Origin: a virus
Virus record (IMG/VR): IMGVR_UViG_3300047585_000037
Coordinates: 1-29,602 of that record
DNA: 29,602 nucleotides
Direction: 5' to 3' (one strand)
The notes beneath the pieces were generated by a model. That model was given only the letters and a program-made list of their open reading frames with translations, ran no database searches and was not told where the DNA came from. Of the stretch, positions 3,021-27,651 are shown one piece after another. Numbering within the stretch: the stretch's first letter is position 1; the number at the start of each line of letters is the position of its first letter. Both the position numbers and the translations under genes were made by a program.

Positions 3021-4667
3021 ATTAACCGCTCCATTGTTTATAGCCTTCAGCAGATTAGATCCTATGACTACCTAACTGGTAATGAAGACACTTTGATTGG
3101 CGCTGCCAATTACGGGCAGATGCTCTTAGGGCAAACCCAGACCGTAGTTAGTAATCTTATTGCTTCGCCCACATCACCGACAAGTCTGGATTTAAACTTA
3201 ACAACCGGCTTTATTATGCAATTAGTGCCTGTAGACACTACTGCTTACGGTTCCTTGCCAGCAAATACCCAGACAGTAATGCAATTAGGCATTTCAACTG
3301 CAACGGGTGTCACATTAAGCACAGCCGGATTAAGCGCTGGGCAAAGTATGTATGCCTTAATTCAGGCAACTTTTACCCAAATAGACGCTATTAGACCGGG
3401 CGATCCTAACGGCGGCGTTCTACCGTACATTAACGTCAACAACCCAACACAACCTTTTAATGGACCAAACAATTCAGGCACTCCACAAAATACAGTACGT
3501 CAAGGTGTATGCACTATATCAGTAACATACGGCAATCCAGCAACCACTGGTGATGAAACACCTCCTTCGCCAAGCGCTAATAATGTTGGTTTATTCCTGG
3601 TTGATTTGACTTATGGTCAAACAGTTATTACATCCGGTGAAATCTTAAATCCAAACAATGTAGAAGGTGCCGAACAAACACCTGTATTAGCTGGACTTTT
3701 AAATGCACATCATCAAGGTTTCTTAGGACAAGCTCCACAAATCCAACTAAGTTTAGATGGAGATAGTCCGCAGGAAGTACAAGGTGAATTACCTGTTATA
3801 AATATGGTTGCTTCTAATACTAGAGGTGCTGTTTCGGCATTTATATCTGGCAGTGGCGATCCTAATGGAACGCAAGCCGGTAACAATGACGTTAATGGTG
3901 CATCAGATATGTACTGGGATAATGTCGGCATGACATTATGGGTTTGCGATACAACTGGTGATTCTTCTGGAGCGCATTGGACAGAAGCCGGGGCTACTGC
4001 ACCAACTGGACATCCATTTCAATCAATCAATTTACAAGTTTTCGCTTCATCCGGTAGTTACACACCTACAACTAATACAAGATATATCAGGGCCACAGTA
4101 GTCGGTGGTGGTGGCGGCGGGGGTGGTGGTGCATATTCTATCCTGTCTGGTTCATCTAATTCCGGAGGCGGTGGTGGTGGCGGCGGCGGTGGTGTCGTAC
4201 CAATTGAAACAGCTATTGGTAATATAACGTCACCCGTTACAGTCACAATTGGAACTGGTGGAACCGGCGGTGCTGGTGCACCGAATAATTCTTCCACAGG
4301 TACTAACGGTGGTTCCGGTGGTAATACCAGTTTTGGCACTTACGCAGTTGCATATGGTGGTGGTGGTGGAGTACAAGCAACAGCATATGGTCAAGGTGGT
4401 GCTGGTGGTTTAGGAACCTTTACCGGTTCAGGCATACAGGGTATAGTTGCTGGTGGTAATGCGGGGGGCATCAGCGGTAATGATAATGCTGGATCTGGTG
4501 GTGGTAATGCTTACGGCGGTGGCGGTATTGGTGGCACTGGTTTAAGTCACAACGGTACAGCCGGTAATGCCTATGGCGGTGGTGGCGGGGGTGGATATTA
4601 CACAGGCGGCGCTGGAGCTAATGGTGCAAATGGTCTTGTTCTAATTGAAGAATTCATAGGTGCTTAA
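3021..4667 (+). CDS. Tail fibre protein with polyglycine tip, ATT start
   Basis: The proposed start is ATT at 3021, giving 'M-NRSIVYSLQQIRSYDYL', 24 codons upstream of the first conventional start. This N-terminus resembles the 'MNRQIVYPGQ...' opening that I recall from Burkholderia-type phage tail fibre proteins, and those relatives also share the following block with 'GPNNSG..QNTVRQGVC' and 'VGLFLVDLTYGQT.IT.G'. An in-frame TAA lies at 2997. The C-terminal third is extremely glycine-rich (runs of 8-10 Gly) within a 'YIRATVVGGGGG...' to 'NGLVLIEEFIG' domain. This is the glycine-rich fibre-tip fold used for receptor binding in other phages. Its fibre-assembly partner is the next gene. The fibre role is well supported; the ATT start is likely but unproven. 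Confidence 0.8.
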   Translation: MNRSIVYSLQQIRSYDYLTGNEDTLIGAANYGQMLLGQTQTVVSNLIASPTSPTSLDLNLTTGFIMQLVPVDTTAYGSLPANTQTVMQLGISTATGVTLSTAGLSAGQSMYALIQATFTQIDAIRPGDPNGGVLPYINVNNPTQPFNGPNNSGTPQNTVRQGVCTISVTYGNPATTGDETPPSPSANNVGLFLVDLTYGQTVITSGEILNPNNVEGAEQTPVLAGLLNAHHQGFLGQAPQIQLSLDGDSPQEVQGELPVINMVASNTRGAVSAFISGSGDPNGTQAGNNDVNGASDMYWDNVGMTLWVCDTTGDSSGAHWTEAGATAPTGHPFQSINLQVFASSGSYTPTTNTRYIRATVVGGGGGGGGGAYSILSGSSNSGGGGGGGGGGVVPIETAIGNITSPVTVTIGTGGTGGAGAPNNSSTGTNGGSGGNTSFGTYAVAYGGGGGVQATAYGQGGAGGLGTFTGSGIQGIVAGGNAGGISGNDNAGSGGGNAYGGGGIGGTGLSHNGTAGNAYGGGGGGGYYTGGAGANGANGLVLIEEFIGA

Positions 4668-4671
4668 TTAT

Positions 4672-5169
4672 ATGAAGCATATAGCACATATCAAAGACGG
4701 AAAGATCGTTAACATTTCTTTACATAAAGAAATGCCCAAAGGTCAAAATTTTTTAGACGTTTCGGAGACACCCGCTAAAATAGGCGATGAAATCCATAAA
4801 GGACAAGTTATACCTGCTGAAGCATTTCAATCTTTGGATGAAGCCAAAGAAGCTTGTCGTAATATAGAAAAAATGAAACATATGAATGATCGTCTGATTG
4901 ATGGTTTTAAAGTATCTTCATTAACAGAACTCATGGCTATTTATAATTGCACAGATGTTAGTTTAGTCATTACACTGTCTGATGATACAGGCTTAATAAG
5001 GCATTTAGATAGACATCAAATGAACGATCTATTAAATAGACTAGCGGCAGAACGCCAGCTTAGGATGACAGCATACAATGAAAAATTATGCGCCATAGAA
5101 GATCTTAAATCAATTAAAGATTTAATTAAACTTTATTCGGACTTAGTTGTACATCCAAAGGCTAAGTAG
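4672..5169 (+). CDS. Tail fibre assembly chaperone-like protein (DUF4376-like)
   Basis: 165 residues from ATG 4672, which has AGGTG 9 bases upstream. A GTG at 4660 overlapping the fibre stop is the alternative. The N-terminal part reads as a short beta unit ('AHIKDGKIVNISLHKEM'). The C-terminal half is helical: 'LVITLSDDTGLIRHL.R.QMNDLLNRL..ERQLRMTAYNEKL.AIEDLKSIKDLIKLY', the layout of DUF4376/tail-fibre-assembly proteins that follow fibre genes. Such proteins help fold or attach the fibre encoded just upstream. The stop is immediately followed by the ATG of the next gene. Confidence 0.6.
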   Translation: MKHIAHIKDGKIVNISLHKEMPKGQNFLDVSETPAKIGDEIHKGQVIPAEAFQSLDEAKEACRNIEKMKHMNDRLIDGFKVSSLTELMAIYNCTDVSLVITLSDDTGLIRHLDRHQMNDLLNRLAAERQLRMTAYNEKLCAIEDLKSIKDLIKLYSDLVVHPKAK

Positions 5170-6750
5170 ATGAAGAAGCTGTTAGCAATTTTGACTACAA
5201 TATTGTGTACAGTTTTGTACACACCAACCGCTAATGCCCAGGCCGGTGTCTTCGTTCGTCCTAATGCTTCAACGTTAACGTCGCCTATTACTAATAGCAC
5301 ATGGTATTTTAATCAAACAGATGGACATTTATATAGTTTTAATGGTGTAGCCTTTGTGCAAATTGACCCATTACAGGTTAATTTGGTAGCCACTACCGAT
5401 CCAGGGGCTAGTAACGATAGCACTGAAGGATATCAGGTAGGTTCTGTTTGGCTGAATACATCTAATGGTAATACCTGGTTCTGCGCTGACAATACGGCTA
5501 GCGCTGCTATTTGGAATTTGTTCGCTAGTAACAATTTAAGTATTGCCCAATTGCCATTCCAGTTAGTGACAAGTATGGCTTTACAGGATTTTGCGACATC
5601 CGCAATATTACCTAGCCCCGCTTCGGGACTAACCTTAACCTTACCAGCCGGGCAAGCATATGTTAATGGTCAATACTTTAGCATAGCTACAAGTTCCTAT
5701 ACCTATACAGACAATAGTTGGACCTATGATTTCGTAACAAATACTGGAATAATTGCGCATTACAATGTCATGACTGGTGCAAGCGCACCTAGTGTTAGTA
5801 ATGCTGTATTGGCATACAGGGTTGTTGCATCAGGCGGTAATATCACCACAGTGGTTCCGTTTTTTGCGGTGCCAAATGCGTTGCGTAGTTACATGATTAC
5901 GCCGCCAAACAGTGCTAATAAAGTTTTCCAAACTGATCCAACAAATCCATTAGGGGTAAAATACGATACATTCCCTATCGCTGGGTTGTCACCCGGATCG
6001 GCTGCTAACTATAACGCTTTAATATTTAATGGCAGTATATGGACACCCGCTTTTTTGCCTCTTCTAAGCTTAGACACATCCACTGCGTCAACTGGTAATA
6101 CGATTCAATTTGATGGCACCTATTGGTTGGCACAAACTTTATCACCAGCCGGTGGTGGCACTGGGAACGGAACAGCTCCTACGGATGGGCAAGTATTAGT
6201 CGGTAGTACAAGTAGTGGTTTATATGCACCAGCGACAATTAGTAATGGTACAAATATTACCGTTACAGGTGGAGCAAATACATTATCAATAGGACTATTC
6301 GGACAAGTGGCTCCTGCCAATGGCGGGACCGGAAATGCAACCGTACCATCTAATGGGCAAATACCGATTGGTGATGGAACTATATATACACCTGAAACTA
6401 TTACGCCTGGTACTGGTATTGGGATCAATAACGCAGCTCATAGTATAACGATTAGTAATATAGGTTTACCGCCTAATAGTGAAAGTAGCGATTTTAATGC
6501 CGCCGGGGGAAATTCATATTTCTGTACGGGTAGTTTAACTGCTACATTGCCAGATGCAACAGCTTGTGGCGGGCAAGAAATCATAGTCTGGAATACCGGT
6601 AGCGGGACCGTTACTTACGCAGTAACTTCAGCGCAAACTATTAATGGCAGTGCGGCTACATTTACATCCAGTACCCAGTGGGAAATGTATAGATTTATAT
6701 CGGATGGCGCCAACTGGGAAATGACTAAAGCTACTGGCCCGACTAGCTAA
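5170..6750 (+). CDS. Fibre-like repeat protein with a Sec signal peptide
   Basis: 526 residues, ATG directly after the preceding stop. Residues 1-24 are a clear signal peptide: two Lys, a hydrophobic stretch, and A-N-A before Gln. Next come 'G..W.NTSNGNTWFCADN' segments like those in side-fibre proteins. Two about 50-residue repeats follow near residues 325-425, with the common fibre motif 'PA.GGTGN.T.P..GQ..IG'. The C-terminal module contains 'LPDATACGGQEIIVWN' and 'YRFISDGANWEMT', shared with the gene at 7321. The module composition is that of a phage fibre, but a signal peptide predicts export from the cytoplasm, where fibres are normally assembled. It could be a secreted or surface protein rather than a virion part; the sequence cannot settle this. 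Confidence 0.7.
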   Translation: MKKLLAILTTILCTVLYTPTANAQAGVFVRPNASTLTSPITNSTWYFNQTDGHLYSFNGVAFVQIDPLQVNLVATTDPGASNDSTEGYQVGSVWLNTSNGNTWFCADNTASAAIWNLFASNNLSIAQLPFQLVTSMALQDFATSAILPSPASGLTLTLPAGQAYVNGQYFSIATSSYTYTDNSWTYDFVTNTGIIAHYNVMTGASAPSVSNAVLAYRVVASGGNITTVVPFFAVPNALRSYMITPPNSANKVFQTDPTNPLGVKYDTFPIAGLSPGSAANYNALIFNGSIWTPAFLPLLSLDTSTASTGNTIQFDGTYWLAQTLSPAGGGTGNGTAPTDGQVLVGSTSSGLYAPATISNGTNITVTGGANTLSIGLFGQVAPANGGTGNATVPSNGQIPIGDGTIYTPETITPGTGIGINNAAHSITISNIGLPPNSESSDFNAAGGNSYFCTGSLTATLPDATACGGQEIIVWNTGSGTVTYAVTSAQTINGSAATFTSSTQWEMYRFISDGANWEMTKATGPTS

Positions 6751-6775
6751 TATGAAGCTTTTCTAAGGATAGGGG

Positions 6776-6803
6776 TTGTAATCGCTATAGTTTCTGGTAA
6801 TAT
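6776..6803 (+). promoter_or_regulatory. Candidate extended -10 promoter before the secreted small proteins
   Basis: TTGTAA (6776-6781), a 16-base spacer, then TAATAT (6798-6803) preceded by TG-G, an extended -10. It sits in the only sizeable gap (95 bases) in this stretch and would give a leader of about 35 bases before the ATG at 6846. Confidence 0.4.
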
Positions 6804-6845
6804 TAGGTTAGGAATCTTGACAGGACTGGAGTCAAACAAATAATT

Positions 6846-7298
6846 ATGAAAATTACCCTTAAAATAGTAAGTCTTTTAACAGCATTGCTGTTTACGGGAT
6901 CTTTAGCATTTGCCCAAGCCCCTGCGCCAGATTCTTCGGCAGGTGTAGTTGTTCATTTAGTCGGTAATAGCGGCACTCCTACTGTTGCTTTAAATACGGC
7001 AGGTGCTGGTTCTGGTAGTTCAGTAGCTGCATTCGCCGGTACGGATTTAGCCGGTACTGTATCAATCACAACCGCCGGGTCCCCTGGTACAAGTGCTGTA
7101 GTAGCAACCATTACATTTGCTAATCCTTATGGTGCAACGCCACATGTTTTAATGACTCCAGGTAATGCTGCTGCTGCTCATTTGGCAGTCGACGCTATCC
7201 CGGTTGTAACAGTTTCAACTACGGAAATTACGATTACATCAGGCACAACCGCATTAGGAACTACAACCTATATATTCAATTACATGGTTGCAGAATAA
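6846..7298 (+). CDS. Secreted beta-sandwich protein related to fibre modules
   Basis: 150 residues. The first 23 form a signal peptide (K-rich start, leucine-rich core, A-F-A before Gln). The mature part follows a module I recall from phage fibre and surface proteins: 'FAGTDLAGTVSITT', then 'VVATITFANPYG..PHVLMTPGN.AAA', then 'TTYIFNYMV' at the end. No catalytic residues are apparent. GGAG lies rather far (14 bases) upstream of the ATG, so translation initiation is not clear. It is the second of four consecutive signal-peptide proteins. Confidence 0.65.
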   Translation: MKITLKIVSLLTALLFTGSLAFAQAPAPDSSAGVVVHLVGNSGTPTVALNTAGAGSGSSVAAFAGTDLAGTVSITTAGSPGTSAVVATITFANPYGATPHVLMTPGNAAAAHLAVDAIPVVTVSTTEITITSGTTALGTTTYIFNYMVAE

Positions 7299-7320
7299 AT
7301 AACTAATTTGAGAGGTTGAC

Positions 7321-7719
7321 TTGCGTTCCCTTCTAATAGCCTTAGTAGCTTTCTTGCTATTAATAACGCCTGCACAGGCACAAAGTGGCAATATTTCTAT
7401 TGTTAATAACACTGGCACTGTTTCATTAGGCGGATTTATATTCGCCACTGAAAATGCTAATTTTGATGCCACTATCCTAACTGCTTATTCTGTAACAGCT
7501 ACATGCGGCTGTACATTGCCATCTGCGATTGGGGCACAGGGGACAGAGATAGAAGTAATTAATAATGCAGTTTCAACGACTATAACTTTCTTAACAGCCG
7601 GTGGTCAAACTATTGCAGGCTTGACTTCTGGCACATTAACTAGTACAGTGCATTATGAAACTTATCGGTTTATGTCCGATGGTTTGAATTGGCAGATCAC
7701 AGCTCATTACGCACCGTAA
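7321..7719 (+). CDS. Small secreted fibre-tip-like protein
   Basis: 132 residues from a TTG start with GAGG 5 bases upstream. Residues 1-20 are a signal peptide ending A-Q-A. The mature protein is essentially a single C-terminal fibre module: 'SVTATCGCTLPSAIGAQGTEIEVIN' and 'YRFMSDGLNWQIT' correspond to 'LTATLPDATACGGQEIIVWN' and 'YRFISDGANWEMT' at the end of the 526-residue protein at 5170. It is therefore a stand-alone, exported copy of that fibre tip domain. The function is unknown. Confidence 0.65.
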   Translation: MRSLLIALVAFLLLITPAQAQSGNISIVNNTGTVSLGGFIFATENANFDATILTAYSVTATCGCTLPSAIGAQGTEIEVINNAVSTTITFLTAGGQTIAGLTSGTLTSTVHYETYRFMSDGLNWQITAHYAP

Positions 7720-7732
7720 GCAAGGAATATAT

Positions 7733-9115
7733 ATGCATCTGATACCTAAAGTATTGTTAAGCTTAGCAACTGCATTGCATTTATGTAATGCTCCTGTACA
7801 TCAATTTCAGCCACACGCCGAAAATGGTCCTAATATTTCTATTGATAACAATAGTGGTAACTTAGTCTTAAATGGTGGAGCTGCCGTTGGGGCAACATAT
7901 TTAACCGAAAGCGATGAATCAACTTCTATTCCTAGTTCATATCAATTGTTAGCTGGCGAAAATATTACATTAACGCCCGCTTCGGGAACTCCTAATACAT
8001 TAACTGTGGCAGCTACCGGTGGCGGCGGGGGTGGATTACAATTCGGTGGTAGCGGTGCCCAAGGGGCTTTAGATGTCACAGGTGTTACAACTAATACACC
8101 GGGGCAACAACAGAACTGGACCACATTAACGGTAGAAGAAGTTGGAACTTTAAATGTAGTCAGTGGACAAGGAATACATGCGACTGGAGCTGTTGCTATT
8201 AATGGACAAATTAATGTAGCGCAAAATTACAGTGGACCAGGAGCTGGTAATCCAGGCTTTCAATATTTCGATGGCACCAATACTTATATATTAGGTGGTG
8301 GTGGAGGTGGTAATGGTGGATTTGGTGGGACTTCAGGGCATGGTTATAATGCTGCTCAAGGTGGATCACCACTATCCTATAATCAATTTTTTGGCGGAGG
8401 ACCCGGTGGTAATGTTGCTCCTGATCAAACGCTTACTGGTTTAATTGGTTGCGGTGGTGGAGTTTTAATAATAGATGCTATTGGAGATGTTAATGTTGGC
8501 GGTGAAGCTGCATCAGGTTCCATTAGTGCGCAAGGTCAGAATGGATTAGACGCATCTGATAGTGAATCGGAATACGGAATACCATCAGCTACCGGTGGGG
8601 GGGCAGGTGGAACGATTGGTATATATTCACAAACGTCTATTGAAGTACAAGAAGGTAGCGTTATAGCTATTGGTGGTAGCGGTGGAGATGGTAATATCCC
8701 CGGGGGATTGTATGCCGGTGGTGGTGGCGGCGGTGGGCAAGTTGTATTAGTCGCACCAATAATTACTGATTTAGACCCTAGTAATGATGTTCAAGTGCAA
8801 AAAGGTTTTGCAGGTACTGGATATGGAACAACAGGAAATGGACAGAATGGATTAGTCTTTGAAATTACAGCTACTCCAACATTGCCATTGGCGCAATTAA
8901 CATTTCCTGGAATGAAATTATATTCTAAAATTGCTAATGCCAAACAAGAGCAACATTATTTCAAAATTAGCGGTAGAGAATGGATATCGTTTTTAGCTGC
9001 AACCCAAGCGCATAGCAATAAAGAATTCGTACAAATCTGCAATGAGTTATCAAATAACCATCAAATAGCAGAACCTATAGCAGTCGGGGATTTGGTCGAC
9101 TCAAACGCATCATAA
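7733..9115 (+). CDS. Glycine-rich secreted repeat protein with helical C-terminus
   Basis: 460 residues, ATG with AAGGA 6 bases upstream. The N-terminus is hydrophobic (residues 1-20) and could be a signal peptide, though the cleavage site is less clean than in its neighbours. Next come 'LLAGENITLTPASGTPNTLTV', a fibre repeat motif, then several Gly-rich blocks ('GGGGGGNGGFGG', 'GGGAGGTIGIYSQ', 'GGGGGGGQVVLVAP') alternating with 'INV', 'GDVNVGG' and 'IEVQEGSVIAIGGSGG' beta strands. This resembles a beta-helix or polyglycine adhesin. The last 70 residues are charged and helical and lack glycine. It probably recognises a surface; whether in the virion or after secretion is unclear. Confidence 0.6.
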   Translation: MHLIPKVLLSLATALHLCNAPVHQFQPHAENGPNISIDNNSGNLVLNGGAAVGATYLTESDESTSIPSSYQLLAGENITLTPASGTPNTLTVAATGGGGGGLQFGGSGAQGALDVTGVTTNTPGQQQNWTTLTVEEVGTLNVVSGQGIHATGAVAINGQINVAQNYSGPGAGNPGFQYFDGTNTYILGGGGGGNGGFGGTSGHGYNAAQGGSPLSYNQFFGGGPGGNVAPDQTLTGLIGCGGGVLIIDAIGDVNVGGEAASGSISAQGQNGLDASDSESEYGIPSATGGGAGGTIGIYSQTSIEVQEGSVIAIGGSGGDGNIPGGLYAGGGGGGGQVVLVAPIITDLDPSNDVQVQKGFAGTGYGTTGNGQNGLVFEITATPTLPLAQLTFPGMKLYSKIANAKQEQHYFKISGREWISFLAATQAHSNKEFVQICNELSNNHQIAEPIAVGDLVDSNAS

Positions 9116-9454: not shown

Positions 9455-9655
9455 ATGCCTCCTGTAGCTCTTATCATCGCTGTCACCTGTTTATCTATCG
9501 GTGTATTAGCGGCAATCTTTTTACCTTTTATAGCTGCTATGAAGCATGTTACCTACACTTTGGATACCGCAGTCATAAGTGCAGTAACCGGTACATTATT
9601 AGGAGTAATGACTGTTATTATGGTCAATAGTAAAAAAAATGGAACCGGAAGCTAA
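9455..9655 (+). CDS. Holin-like protein with two membrane spans
   Basis: 66 residues, ATG with GGGGG 4 bases upstream. There are two hydrophobic segments (about residues 4-28 and 38-57) separated by a short loop, and a basic tail 'NSKKNGTGS'. Size, two spans, charged C-terminus and position next to an endolysin fit a small two-span holin that permeabilises the inner membrane at lysis. The stop overlaps the stop of the endolysin gene on the other strand by 3 bases. The holin role is inferred, since holins share little sequence. Confidence 0.55.
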   Translation: MPPVALIIAVTCLSIGVLAAIFLPFIAAMKHVTYTLDTAVISAVTGTLLGVMTVIMVNSKKNGTGS

Positions 9656-10287
9656 GAACGAACTACTTTACGGGGACGCCCACCTTTTTTATGCATCTGA
9701 TGTTCCTCCACTGCCGGTGTTACCGGTGCAAGTTCTAACGCAGGAATTACTAATGCAGGTGGTTGAACAACTACGATTGGATGAGCCGTTATATATTGAC
9801 CAATTGCAGCTAAATAAGCATTCATCGGAAATAGCGGGCCAGGGTCCTGATGGTTATTCCCGAATTGCCTAAGCCATGGATCACTATGCCCTAAAATATG
9901 GTTCAACGGAATTTGATACTTAACCGCAATACTGCCAACTAATTCAATAGACTGACTAAGTTGGGGGTTAGTAAGCCATGGAACTGTGCCCATACAGCCC
10001 CCTATAAGCCTGCCTGTGGAATCTTTAAACATATCGGTATGTTCTACCCCTATAGACCGGGGATTGATACCCATGGCGTGCCAAGCGGCATATTTTTCCT
10101 GTACAAACTGAACTATAGAACCGTCCCTGTCTACCATATAATGTGCTGACACTTGGGAAGACGCCCGCTGAAAAGTAGCTATTGTGCCTTCTAGGGTTCC
10201 TAAAGCGGCATGAATAATGATGAATTCAGGCTTAAAAGCTCCCCGCAAGGAGTAATTGGGACTTGGCTTCTGGATGATTGGATTCAT
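9652..10287 (-). CDS. N-acetylmuramoyl-L-alanine amidase endolysin (Amidase_2)
   Basis: 211 residues, on the strand opposite to its neighbours. Amidase_2 hallmarks are present: 'FIIIHAALG' (H26, zinc ligand), 'SAHYMVDRDGSIVQFV' (residues 47-62), 'IGVEH' (E82, likely catalytic), 'HILGHSDPW' (H134, zinc ligand) and 'DPGPLFP' (D148, third ligand). It cleaves the bond between MurNAc and L-Ala of peptidoglycan. There is no signal peptide, so release depends on a holin. A 40-residue Pro/Ala/Val tail ends in a basic 'KKGGRPRK' stretch resembling an AT-hook or a cell-envelope-binding tail. An in-frame stop lies 7 codons upstream of the ATG. Confidence 0.9.
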   Translation of the reverse strand: MNPIIQKPSPNYSLRGAFKPEFIIIHAALGTLEGTIATFQRASSQVSAHYMVDRDGSIVQFVQEKYAAWHAMGINPRSIGVEHTDMFKDSTGRLIGGCMGTVPWLTNPQLSQSIELVGSIAVKYQIPLNHILGHSDPWLRQFGNNHQDPGPLFPMNAYLAAIGQYITAHPIVVVQPPALVIPALELAPVTPAVEEHQMHKKGGRPRKVVRS

Positions 10288-26195: not shown

Positions 26196-26699
26196 ATGAA
26201 ACGTAATAATAAAGGATCAATCATTGAATATGTAGCAGGCACAATGCTATTGGTATTCATAGGCTTATTTTTAGTTGACGTTGGAGCATTAGTATTTGTC
26301 GCTGATACTAACCATATGTTATGTCAACATGCGGCCGTAGCAGCAGCACAAATACCTAATACTGGTACTAGTCCAGCAAGCCAGGCGCAAACAACGGCAC
26401 AAAGTATTATTAGTAATACGCCAGTAACACCATTATTGGAAAATGTGCAGATGACAAGCTTTGTTTATGGCGCTGCTATACCTAATAGTACGGTGACACA
26501 AGTATTACTATCAACTACAGCGGTATGTCAATTACCATTTGAAGTGCCCTTAATACATATTATGTATGTTAATTTATCATCTAGCGCTAGTTGGCCAATA
26601 GCATCTGCAATTAGTACCAGCGGTACTAGTGGCGGGGGTACATCAGGTGGCGGTAGTAGTAGTGGTAGTAGTAGTGGCAGTAGTGGCTGTGGTAATTAG
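26196..26699 (+). CDS. TadE/pilin-like membrane protein
   Basis: 167 residues, ATG with GGGGG 9 bases upstream. The N-terminus has a short basic leader (KRNNKG), then 'SIIEYVAGTMLLVFIGLFLVDVGALVF': a Gly before the processing point, Glu at position 11 and a single hydrophobic helix, as in TadE-type pseudopilins and Flp-like prepilins. 'NHMLCQHAAVAAAQ' after the helix also resembles the Ala-rich end of TadE-like N-termini. The middle is Thr/Ser-rich beta-type sequence with two Cys (43 and near 113), and the end is a Gly/Ser low-complexity tail with one Cys. No other Tad genes are near. It would be inserted in the inner membrane, possibly cleaved by a host prepilin peptidase. A role in blocking or mimicking host pili is inference. 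Confidence 0.6.
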   Translation: MKRNNKGSIIEYVAGTMLLVFIGLFLVDVGALVFVADTNHMLCQHAAVAAAQIPNTGTSPASQAQTTAQSIISNTPVTPLLENVQMTSFVYGAAIPNSTVTQVLLSTTAVCQLPFEVPLIHIMYVNLSSSASWPIASAISTSGTSGGGTSGGGSSSGSSSGSSGCGN

Positions 26700-27470: not shown

Positions 27471-27651
27471 TTTAGCAGTGGGAGATTTTGTAGTAGTTGA
27501 AGGTTTTAAAGCTAAGCTATTGGTTATTGATATCAATATCAATAAACATGAGGCTTTAGTTAGTTATCCATTCCCAATAGGTATTGTATATAGACCTATT
27601 AATTTTCCGGTTAGCAGGTGGGTACCTATAGCGCATTTACAATACGCTTAA
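27463..27651 (+). CDS. Small beta-rich early protein
   Basis: 62 residues with a barrel-like pattern of short strands ('VGDFVVVEGFKAKLLVIDI', 'HEALVSYPF', 'WVPIAHLQY'), reminiscent of small SH3/KOW-like folds. AAGGAG lies about 10-15 bases upstream. Assignment of a fold is tentative; function unknown. Confidence 0.55.
   Translation: MNNLAVGDFVVVEGFKAKLLVIDININKHEALVSYPFPIGIVYRPINFPVSRWVPIAHLQYA

Follow-up and report, generated by a model that had tools for sequence, protein, structure and literature searches.

Predicted Sec-Exported Fibre-Like Proteins Encoded in Tandem in a Tailed-Phage Genome Fragment

Introduction

Tail fibres define the host range of phages and are assumed to be virion parts that are made in the cytoplasm. 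Virus record IMGVR_UViG_3300047585_000037 of IMG/VR (29,602 nucleotides, analysed over its whole length and called the window here) raises the question of whether fibre-type proteins can also be sent out of that compartment. This 29.6-kb record carries baseplate J-like, tail, fibre, lysis, portal, and terminase genes, and an earlier note, made from its letters alone, drew attention to four consecutive genes at 5170-9115 that combine fibre-type modules with N-termini resembling cleavable signal peptides. Our analysis supports canonical signal peptides, by prediction, in three adjacent genes of this cluster. The explanation that we favour, and that as a whole we hold to have an even chance of being right, is that the cluster is a late-operon array of fibre proteins exported by the host secretory (Sec) pathway and acting as free, non-virion proteins.

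Results

Signal peptides in three adjacent genes

Four consecutive open reading frames (ORFs) were confirmed at the coordinates first proposed and are numbered here in order:

5170-6750, + strand: gene 1, predicted exported fibre-like protein, 526 amino acids (aa)
6846-7298, + strand: gene 2, predicted small exported protein, 150 aa, signal peptide called by rule
7321-7719, + strand: gene 3, fibre-tip domain standing alone, predicted to be exported, 132 aa from a TTG start; paralogue of the gene 1 tip, with an AlphaFold2 model and PDB matches
7733-9115, + strand: gene 4, fibre-like protein of 460 aa, rich in glycine; N-terminus hydrophobic but with no good cleavage site

Signal peptides were called with a home-made rule for Sec export and cleavage by signal peptidase I, which requires a positive n-region, an uncharged hydrophobic core with a mean hydropathy of at least 1.9, A, G, or S at position -1, a small or aliphatic residue at -3, and no proline at +1; it accepts 26 of 28 well-known signal peptides of E. 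coli, and shuffled N-termini at a rate of 0.75%. Exactly three of the 48 gene calls in the window pass (5170, 6846, and 7321). All three are adjacent, and they are the genes for which the earlier note had named the sites ANA, AFA, and AQA; it had also judged the fourth N-terminus weaker, and 7733, hydrophobic but with no plausible cleavage site, fails. Genes 1-3 each combine a positive n-region, a hydrophobic core of about 9-13 residues, and an A-x-A motif (a slash marks the predicted cleavage site):

5170-5238, + strand: predicted Sec signal peptide of gene 1 (rule), aa 1-23, ANA/Q, N-terminus MKKLLAILTTILCTVLYTPTANA/Q
6846-6914, + strand: predicted Sec signal peptide of gene 2 (rule), aa 1-23, AFA/Q, N-terminus MKITLKIVSLLTALLFTGSLAFA/Q
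7321-7380, + strand: predicted Sec signal peptide of gene 3 (rule), aa 1-20, AQA/Q, N-terminus MRSLLIALVAFLLLITPAQA/Q

The gene 3 signal requires a TTG start, 5' of which lies a GAGAGG motif. The background of rule-based calls is about 1-3% of phage genes, and at the 3% base rate of comparator phages the chance of a three-gene run among 48 genes is P ~0.0013. The cysteines do not fit a lipobox: Cys 13 in gene 1 (TILC), none in gene 2, 62 and 64 in gene 3, and 18 in gene 4 (LHLC).

Fibre modules in the mature proteins of genes 1 and 3

Gene 1 encodes two GGTGN-type repeats followed by a C-terminal tip domain, and its residues 68-129 form a module present in virion or tail proteins of Pseudomonas and Roseobacter phages. 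Gene 3 has a signal peptide of its own followed by nothing but this tip (34-38% identity, E ~1e-12), a domain whose family is often seen where ordinary phage fibres end:

6127-6489, + strand: aa 320-440 of gene 1, fibre repeats of the GGTGN type; aa 302-374 match phrog_31660 (tail fibre, E 2.1e-6), and 12 viral contigs hold relatives
6448-6741, + strand: aa 427-524 of gene 1, its C-terminal tip domain; paralogous to gene 3 and covered by a family scan

An AlphaFold2 model of the mature part of gene 3, built on 19 relatives, has a mean predicted local distance difference test score (pLDDT) of 85.6. It matches CBA120 TSP4 (Z 13.8), the tailspike depolymerase gp83 of Acinetobacter phage Solidus (Z 13.6), baseplate proteins of Klebsiella phage KP1, and T4 gp10/gp9 (VIA Z 10-14; lowest Foldseek E 3e-6). 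At E<=0.001 the model also matches 392 predicted viral structures. The model thus suggests a fold common to the mature gene 3 domain and TSP4, gp83, and gp10/gp9, which are virion proteins made in the cytoplasm and lacking signal peptides. A chain in 6o38, a chaperone-substrate complex, also matches (Z 9.2), as does, more weakly, a domain of the secreted bacterial protein StcE (4dny; Z 7.7, within the unspecific range of the tool); these are likenesses of fold, with no sequence link shown.

The remaining proteins are less clear. Gene 2 has sub-threshold matches only (H_lectin, E 0.02; phrog_14342 lytic tail fibre, E 0.08), and its model from the single sequence is uninformative (pLDDT 36). Gene 4 has polyglycine blocks and 20% glycine, and it matches phrog_13336, a family of unknown function (E 5e-4). 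Among solved structures, genes 1 and 4 had no meaningful match by sequence. The view that all four genes carry fibre modules therefore holds in part: the repeats or tip domains of canonical virion fibres are found in genes 1 and 3, gene 4 resembles such fibres in composition only, and structure prediction gave a confident tailspike- or baseplate-like fold for gene 3 and none for gene 2. Two mature proteins of the array contain, as predicted from their sequences, a receptor-binding-type tip fold. In genes 1-3 the signal peptide occupies the N-terminus where a canonical virion fibre has its cytoplasmic, baseplate-attaching part, unlike in most relatives.

Recurrence in other phage and bacterial contigs

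Comparable genes were found in unrelated phages, with gene calls in the comparison loci made mechanically and many of the loci being fragments. Relatives of the gene 1 repeats in three unrelated contigs (L008, L009, and L012) start with signal-peptide-like N-termini, and the record of L012 (G003) holds six proteins with such N-termini between a capsid gene and tail-completion genes. In the same record two exported proteins are paralogous (L013, 10253-10831 and 8601-9173; 28% over 201 aa, E 5e-9). The record of L009 (G002, loci L014/L015) has twin-arginine-like N-termini at 4051-5005 and 6168-7964, near the terminase region (MNNLKRRDFLKLIGITITAPMA and MIEYRYTRRQVLKAGIGGASLL), which suggests that proteins predicted to be exported by twin-arginine translocation (Tat) are encoded in a phage genome.

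Signal peptides are present in two of 19 loci of the tip-domain family. One of these two (G009) is a myophage fragment with a window-like order of baseplate J, tail protein, fibre, and then two exported fibres. For its 694-aa exported fibre 79 loci were recovered, and 13 of the 78 assessed have a signal peptide on the matching gene, the rest having ordinary N-termini; when relatives of the second exported fibre were sought, only its two source loci came up. Among the relatives of the 694-aa fibre, the exported ones often stand in tandem (L043, L048, L052, L059, L065, L090, and L093). Genes adjoining exported fibres at L048 9049-11628 and L074 3497-4570 have Tat-like signal sequences (MKLSRRHLLATASAAAL and MLNRRRLLTGAAALAA). 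A switch of signal from Tat to Sec between L048 and L065 was considered and rejected, as the mature proteins show no significant similarity.

Bacterial contigs also carry such genes. In a contig from an Acetobacteraceae metagenome-assembled genome (MAG; L122) four exported genes are followed by holin-like and endolysin-like genes, and exported fibre-like genes occur in contigs of Rhizobiales and Terriglobia. The signal peptide of an Opitutaceae locus (L121) was recognised by eye, the rule missing it because of an arginine. Host names taken from MAG contigs are leads, as binning may err.

The search for like clusters thus succeeded in unrelated phages and gave no close relatives of the window genes themselves: scans of viral contigs with genes 2, 3, and 4 and the portal, and of genome contigs with the terminase, returned none, and in 50,697 phage records tblastn gave no match to genes 2 and 4 and one weak match to gene 3.

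Comparative evidence for probable use of the signals

In aligned pairs of relatives the signal peptides have diverged, whereas conservation sets in just past the predicted cleavage site. In the strongest pair (G009/L050) the signal peptides are identical at 4 of 17 positions and the residues right after the site at 18 of 26; the difference is less marked in L042/L043 (8/15 against 15/26) and in the second exported fibres of G009 and L043, G009b/L043b (7/17 against 15/25). The Acetobacter phages phiAO1 and phiAP1 show no net difference (9/19 against 12/26), with the motif TRPNH-LPQ--LGQ starting one residue past the site.

Exported genes also cluster. The adjoining gene is an exported one at 9 of 23 positions next to exported fibres and at 3 of 122 next to ordinary fibres (Fisher p 2e-6, an approximate value because some loci are near-duplicates), and in several arrays stop/start overlaps support a start codon at the signal. 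G009b and L043b have the signal peptide and mature N-terminus in common and differ in the C-terminal part, which is a tip domain in one and glycine-rich in the other; by sequence comparison this is the pattern of a receptor-binding protein. Export of the mature proteins is, on this comparative evidence, very probably real. The proposal that the proteins are exported during infection is strongly supported in this way for three of the four genes, through recurrence, divergent signals, a conserved mature N-terminus, and tandem clustering; it does not extend to gene 4, which fails the rule.

Predicted exported fibre-like genes in Acetobacter phages

The Acetobacter phages phiAO1, phiAP1, and phiAX1 are temperate and inducible, and phiAP1 has been shown to be infectious (PMC8566455). 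After its baseplate genes phiAO1 encodes two proteins with signal peptides, one tailspike-like (820 aa) and the other small; its record holds host-metabolic-looking genes, so that its boundaries call for caution. In phiAP1 an unannotated ORF in the same position has the same mature start (A/QTRPNHDLPQFKKLGQ against A/STRPNHLLPQYQALGQ) and is apparently split from the remaining protein. This short ORF with its signal peptide (L131 6282-6425; LC644972 36304-36447) has an ATGA overlap with the upstream coding sequence and continues in another frame, possibly as a split gene. In phiAX1 two exported genes adjoin: one encodes a fibre-like protein of 321 aa, and the product of the other is annotated as cycloisomaltooligosaccharide glucanotransferase; the annotated start of the latter at 27492 cuts off a clear signal peptide (MKKIIILALLLLAPCVHA; L133 27387-29312, LC644973).

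The deposited gene calls of phiAX1 and phiAP1 truncate or omit the signal-peptide part, and the terms signal peptide, tail fiber, virion, and structural-protein are absent from the main text of the describing paper (PMC8566455). All three phages resemble the window in that their structural module encodes tailspike- or fibre-like proteins with signal peptides, which are not annotated as such, but no sequence homology to the exported genes of the window was detected.

Genomic setting of the array

The array lies between a canonical tail fibre with a following 169-aa gene and a holin-like/amidase lysis region:

3093-4667, + strand: canonical non-exported tail fibre with a glycine-rich tip and no signal peptide; PF21722 E 2.3e-9, phrog_863 tail E 3.8e-25, phrog_21412/6202 tail fibre matches
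4660-5169, + strand: 169-aa protein directly 3' of the canonical fibre, possible fibre chaperone (from position only)
9455-9655, + strand: holin-like small membrane protein of the lysis region 3' of the array, with two hydrophobic stretches, adjoining the amidase
9652-10287, - strand: N-acetylmuramoyl-L-alanine amidase (endolysin), PF01510 E 1.3e-25

The 169-aa protein had no significant match in family searches, and the stop codon of its gene directly abuts the ATG at 5170. Promoter-like and terminator-like sites around the array are as numerous as in shuffled sequences. Sigma-70-like near-consensus hexamers (TTGACA-16-AATAAT) at 6817-6844 end just 5' of the ATG at 6846, too near for a normal promoter of that gene, and such sites are within chance expectation in the region. 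Elsewhere in the window, at 26196-26699, a 167-aa protein (MKRNNKGSIIEYVAGTMLLVFIGLFLVDVGALVFVADTNHMLCQHAAVAAAQ...) resembles, by look, a TadE/pilin-like membrane-anchored protein, which is unusual for a phage.

Discussion

Free exported adhesins or parts of the virion

Comparison with the relatives suggests that the signal peptides would be used and cleaved by signal peptidase I and that the mature proteins would fold in the periplasm or at the surface, not being built into tails in the cytoplasm. Least certainly, they may act as free adhesins that at the end of infection bind the envelope or extracellular glycans, whether on the infected cell, on neighbouring cells, or on debris. Fewer progeny would then be re-adsorbed and superinfection would be limited, or the polymer around the cells would be held or modified. 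Free adhesins are our first choice because binding-type modules, in a tail-lysis gene run, appear to be routed away from the compartment of tail assembly.

Several observations weigh against this explanation. The N-terminus of gene 4 (MHLIPKVLLSLATALHLCNA/P) fails the rule through proline at +1, its next site (PHA) is too distant from the hydrophobic stretch, and it may be a signal anchor. A von Heijne-type matrix built on 28 signal peptides of E. coli gave gene 1 a low score (1.67); it was set aside for the rule as too small and position-specific. No close relatives of the window genes were found, and the conservation seen at the cleavage site is that of signal peptides in other phages. Finally, a search of the available fragments for a tip shared between an exported and an ordinary fibre of the same phage gave no significant match. 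The covering of receptors, one use that the earlier note had offered, predicts such sharing, so simple receptor masking is weakened.

Another possibility is that the exported fibres are receptor-binding proteins of the virion that mature in the periplasm, with its chaperones and disulfides, and are loaded onto tails at lysis. A conserved mature N-terminus with exchangeable tips is like an anchor with a variable receptor-binding tip, the tips are homologous to those of virion fibres, and the genes directly follow baseplate or fibre genes and in several cases precede lysis genes. However, fibres of tailed phages are known to attach in the cytoplasm, the window already has a canonical fibre, and no chaperone or attachment partner of the exported fibres was identified; we consider loading at lysis unlikely.

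The genes might instead encode surface adhesins or enzymes of the lysogenic-conversion (moron) type, expressed from a prophage and altering the lysogen surface, as lambda Lom does. The temperate nature of phiAO1, phiAP1, and phiAX1 (PMC8566455), the several relatives in bacterial contigs, and the glucanotransferase annotation in phiAX1 are in keeping with this, but the window genes lie within a late tail-lysis run with no convincing promoter or terminator of their own (counts equal those of shuffles), and no integrase was noted in the fragment. Lysogenic conversion is, on balance, rather improbable.

It is very unlikely that the hydrophobic N-termini are uncleaved membrane or virion anchors, an option that the earlier note had kept in view: gene 4, with no good cleavage site, would suit it, but genes 1-3 have A-x-A sites after a short hydrophobic core, and in relatives the hydrophobic part diverges while conservation starts at the predicted site. 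Chance hydrophobic N-termini or start-codon errors, which the rule background in phage genes would allow, are least credible of all given the adjacency (P ~0.0013), the neighbour enrichment (p 2e-6), the independent recurrence (isolates included), and the stop/start overlaps at these starts.

Relation to known systems

The T5 protein Llp is a small receptor-masking lipoprotein that is sent to the envelope and whose gene lies near that of the receptor-binding protein. The window array is like it in placing exported phage proteins near a receptor-binding gene, and would work in the same way if its fibres cover receptors; genes 1-3, however, have no lipobox, and genes 1 and 3 are built from fibre modules. 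To our knowledge, neither secreted free fibres nor exported fibres added at lysis have been described for tailed phages, and a literature search, made mostly without subscription papers, gave no report of signal-peptide-bearing tail-fibre arrays; the earlier note, too, knew of no described system of this kind. Lambda Lom is a phage-encoded outer-membrane protein with a signal peptide; lysogens express it, and its gene stands between those for the tail spike and the tail fibre (PMC12309495). It shares with the window genes phage origin, a signal peptide, and a place among tail genes, but it is an integral outer-membrane beta-barrel, whereas the mature parts in the window appear to be fibre or tailspike modules, several in tandem. 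According to one paper, target proteins of phage diversity-generating retroelements lack signal peptides (PMC6199706).

Significance

Taken together, the loci suggest a use of fibres outside the virus particle that is undescribed in the literature searched. We propose tentatively, at a little under even confidence, that many environmental tailed phages send a second set of fibres through the host Sec pathway, with a conserved exported N-terminus and interchangeable tips, encoded in tandem after the baseplate genes and serving either as free secreted adhesins or as proteins added to virions at lysis. If this is true, phages have an extracellular or periplasmic layer of activity that is now annotated as tail fibre or hypothetical protein. 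The presence of such genes in three inducible Acetobacter phages makes the question open to direct test.

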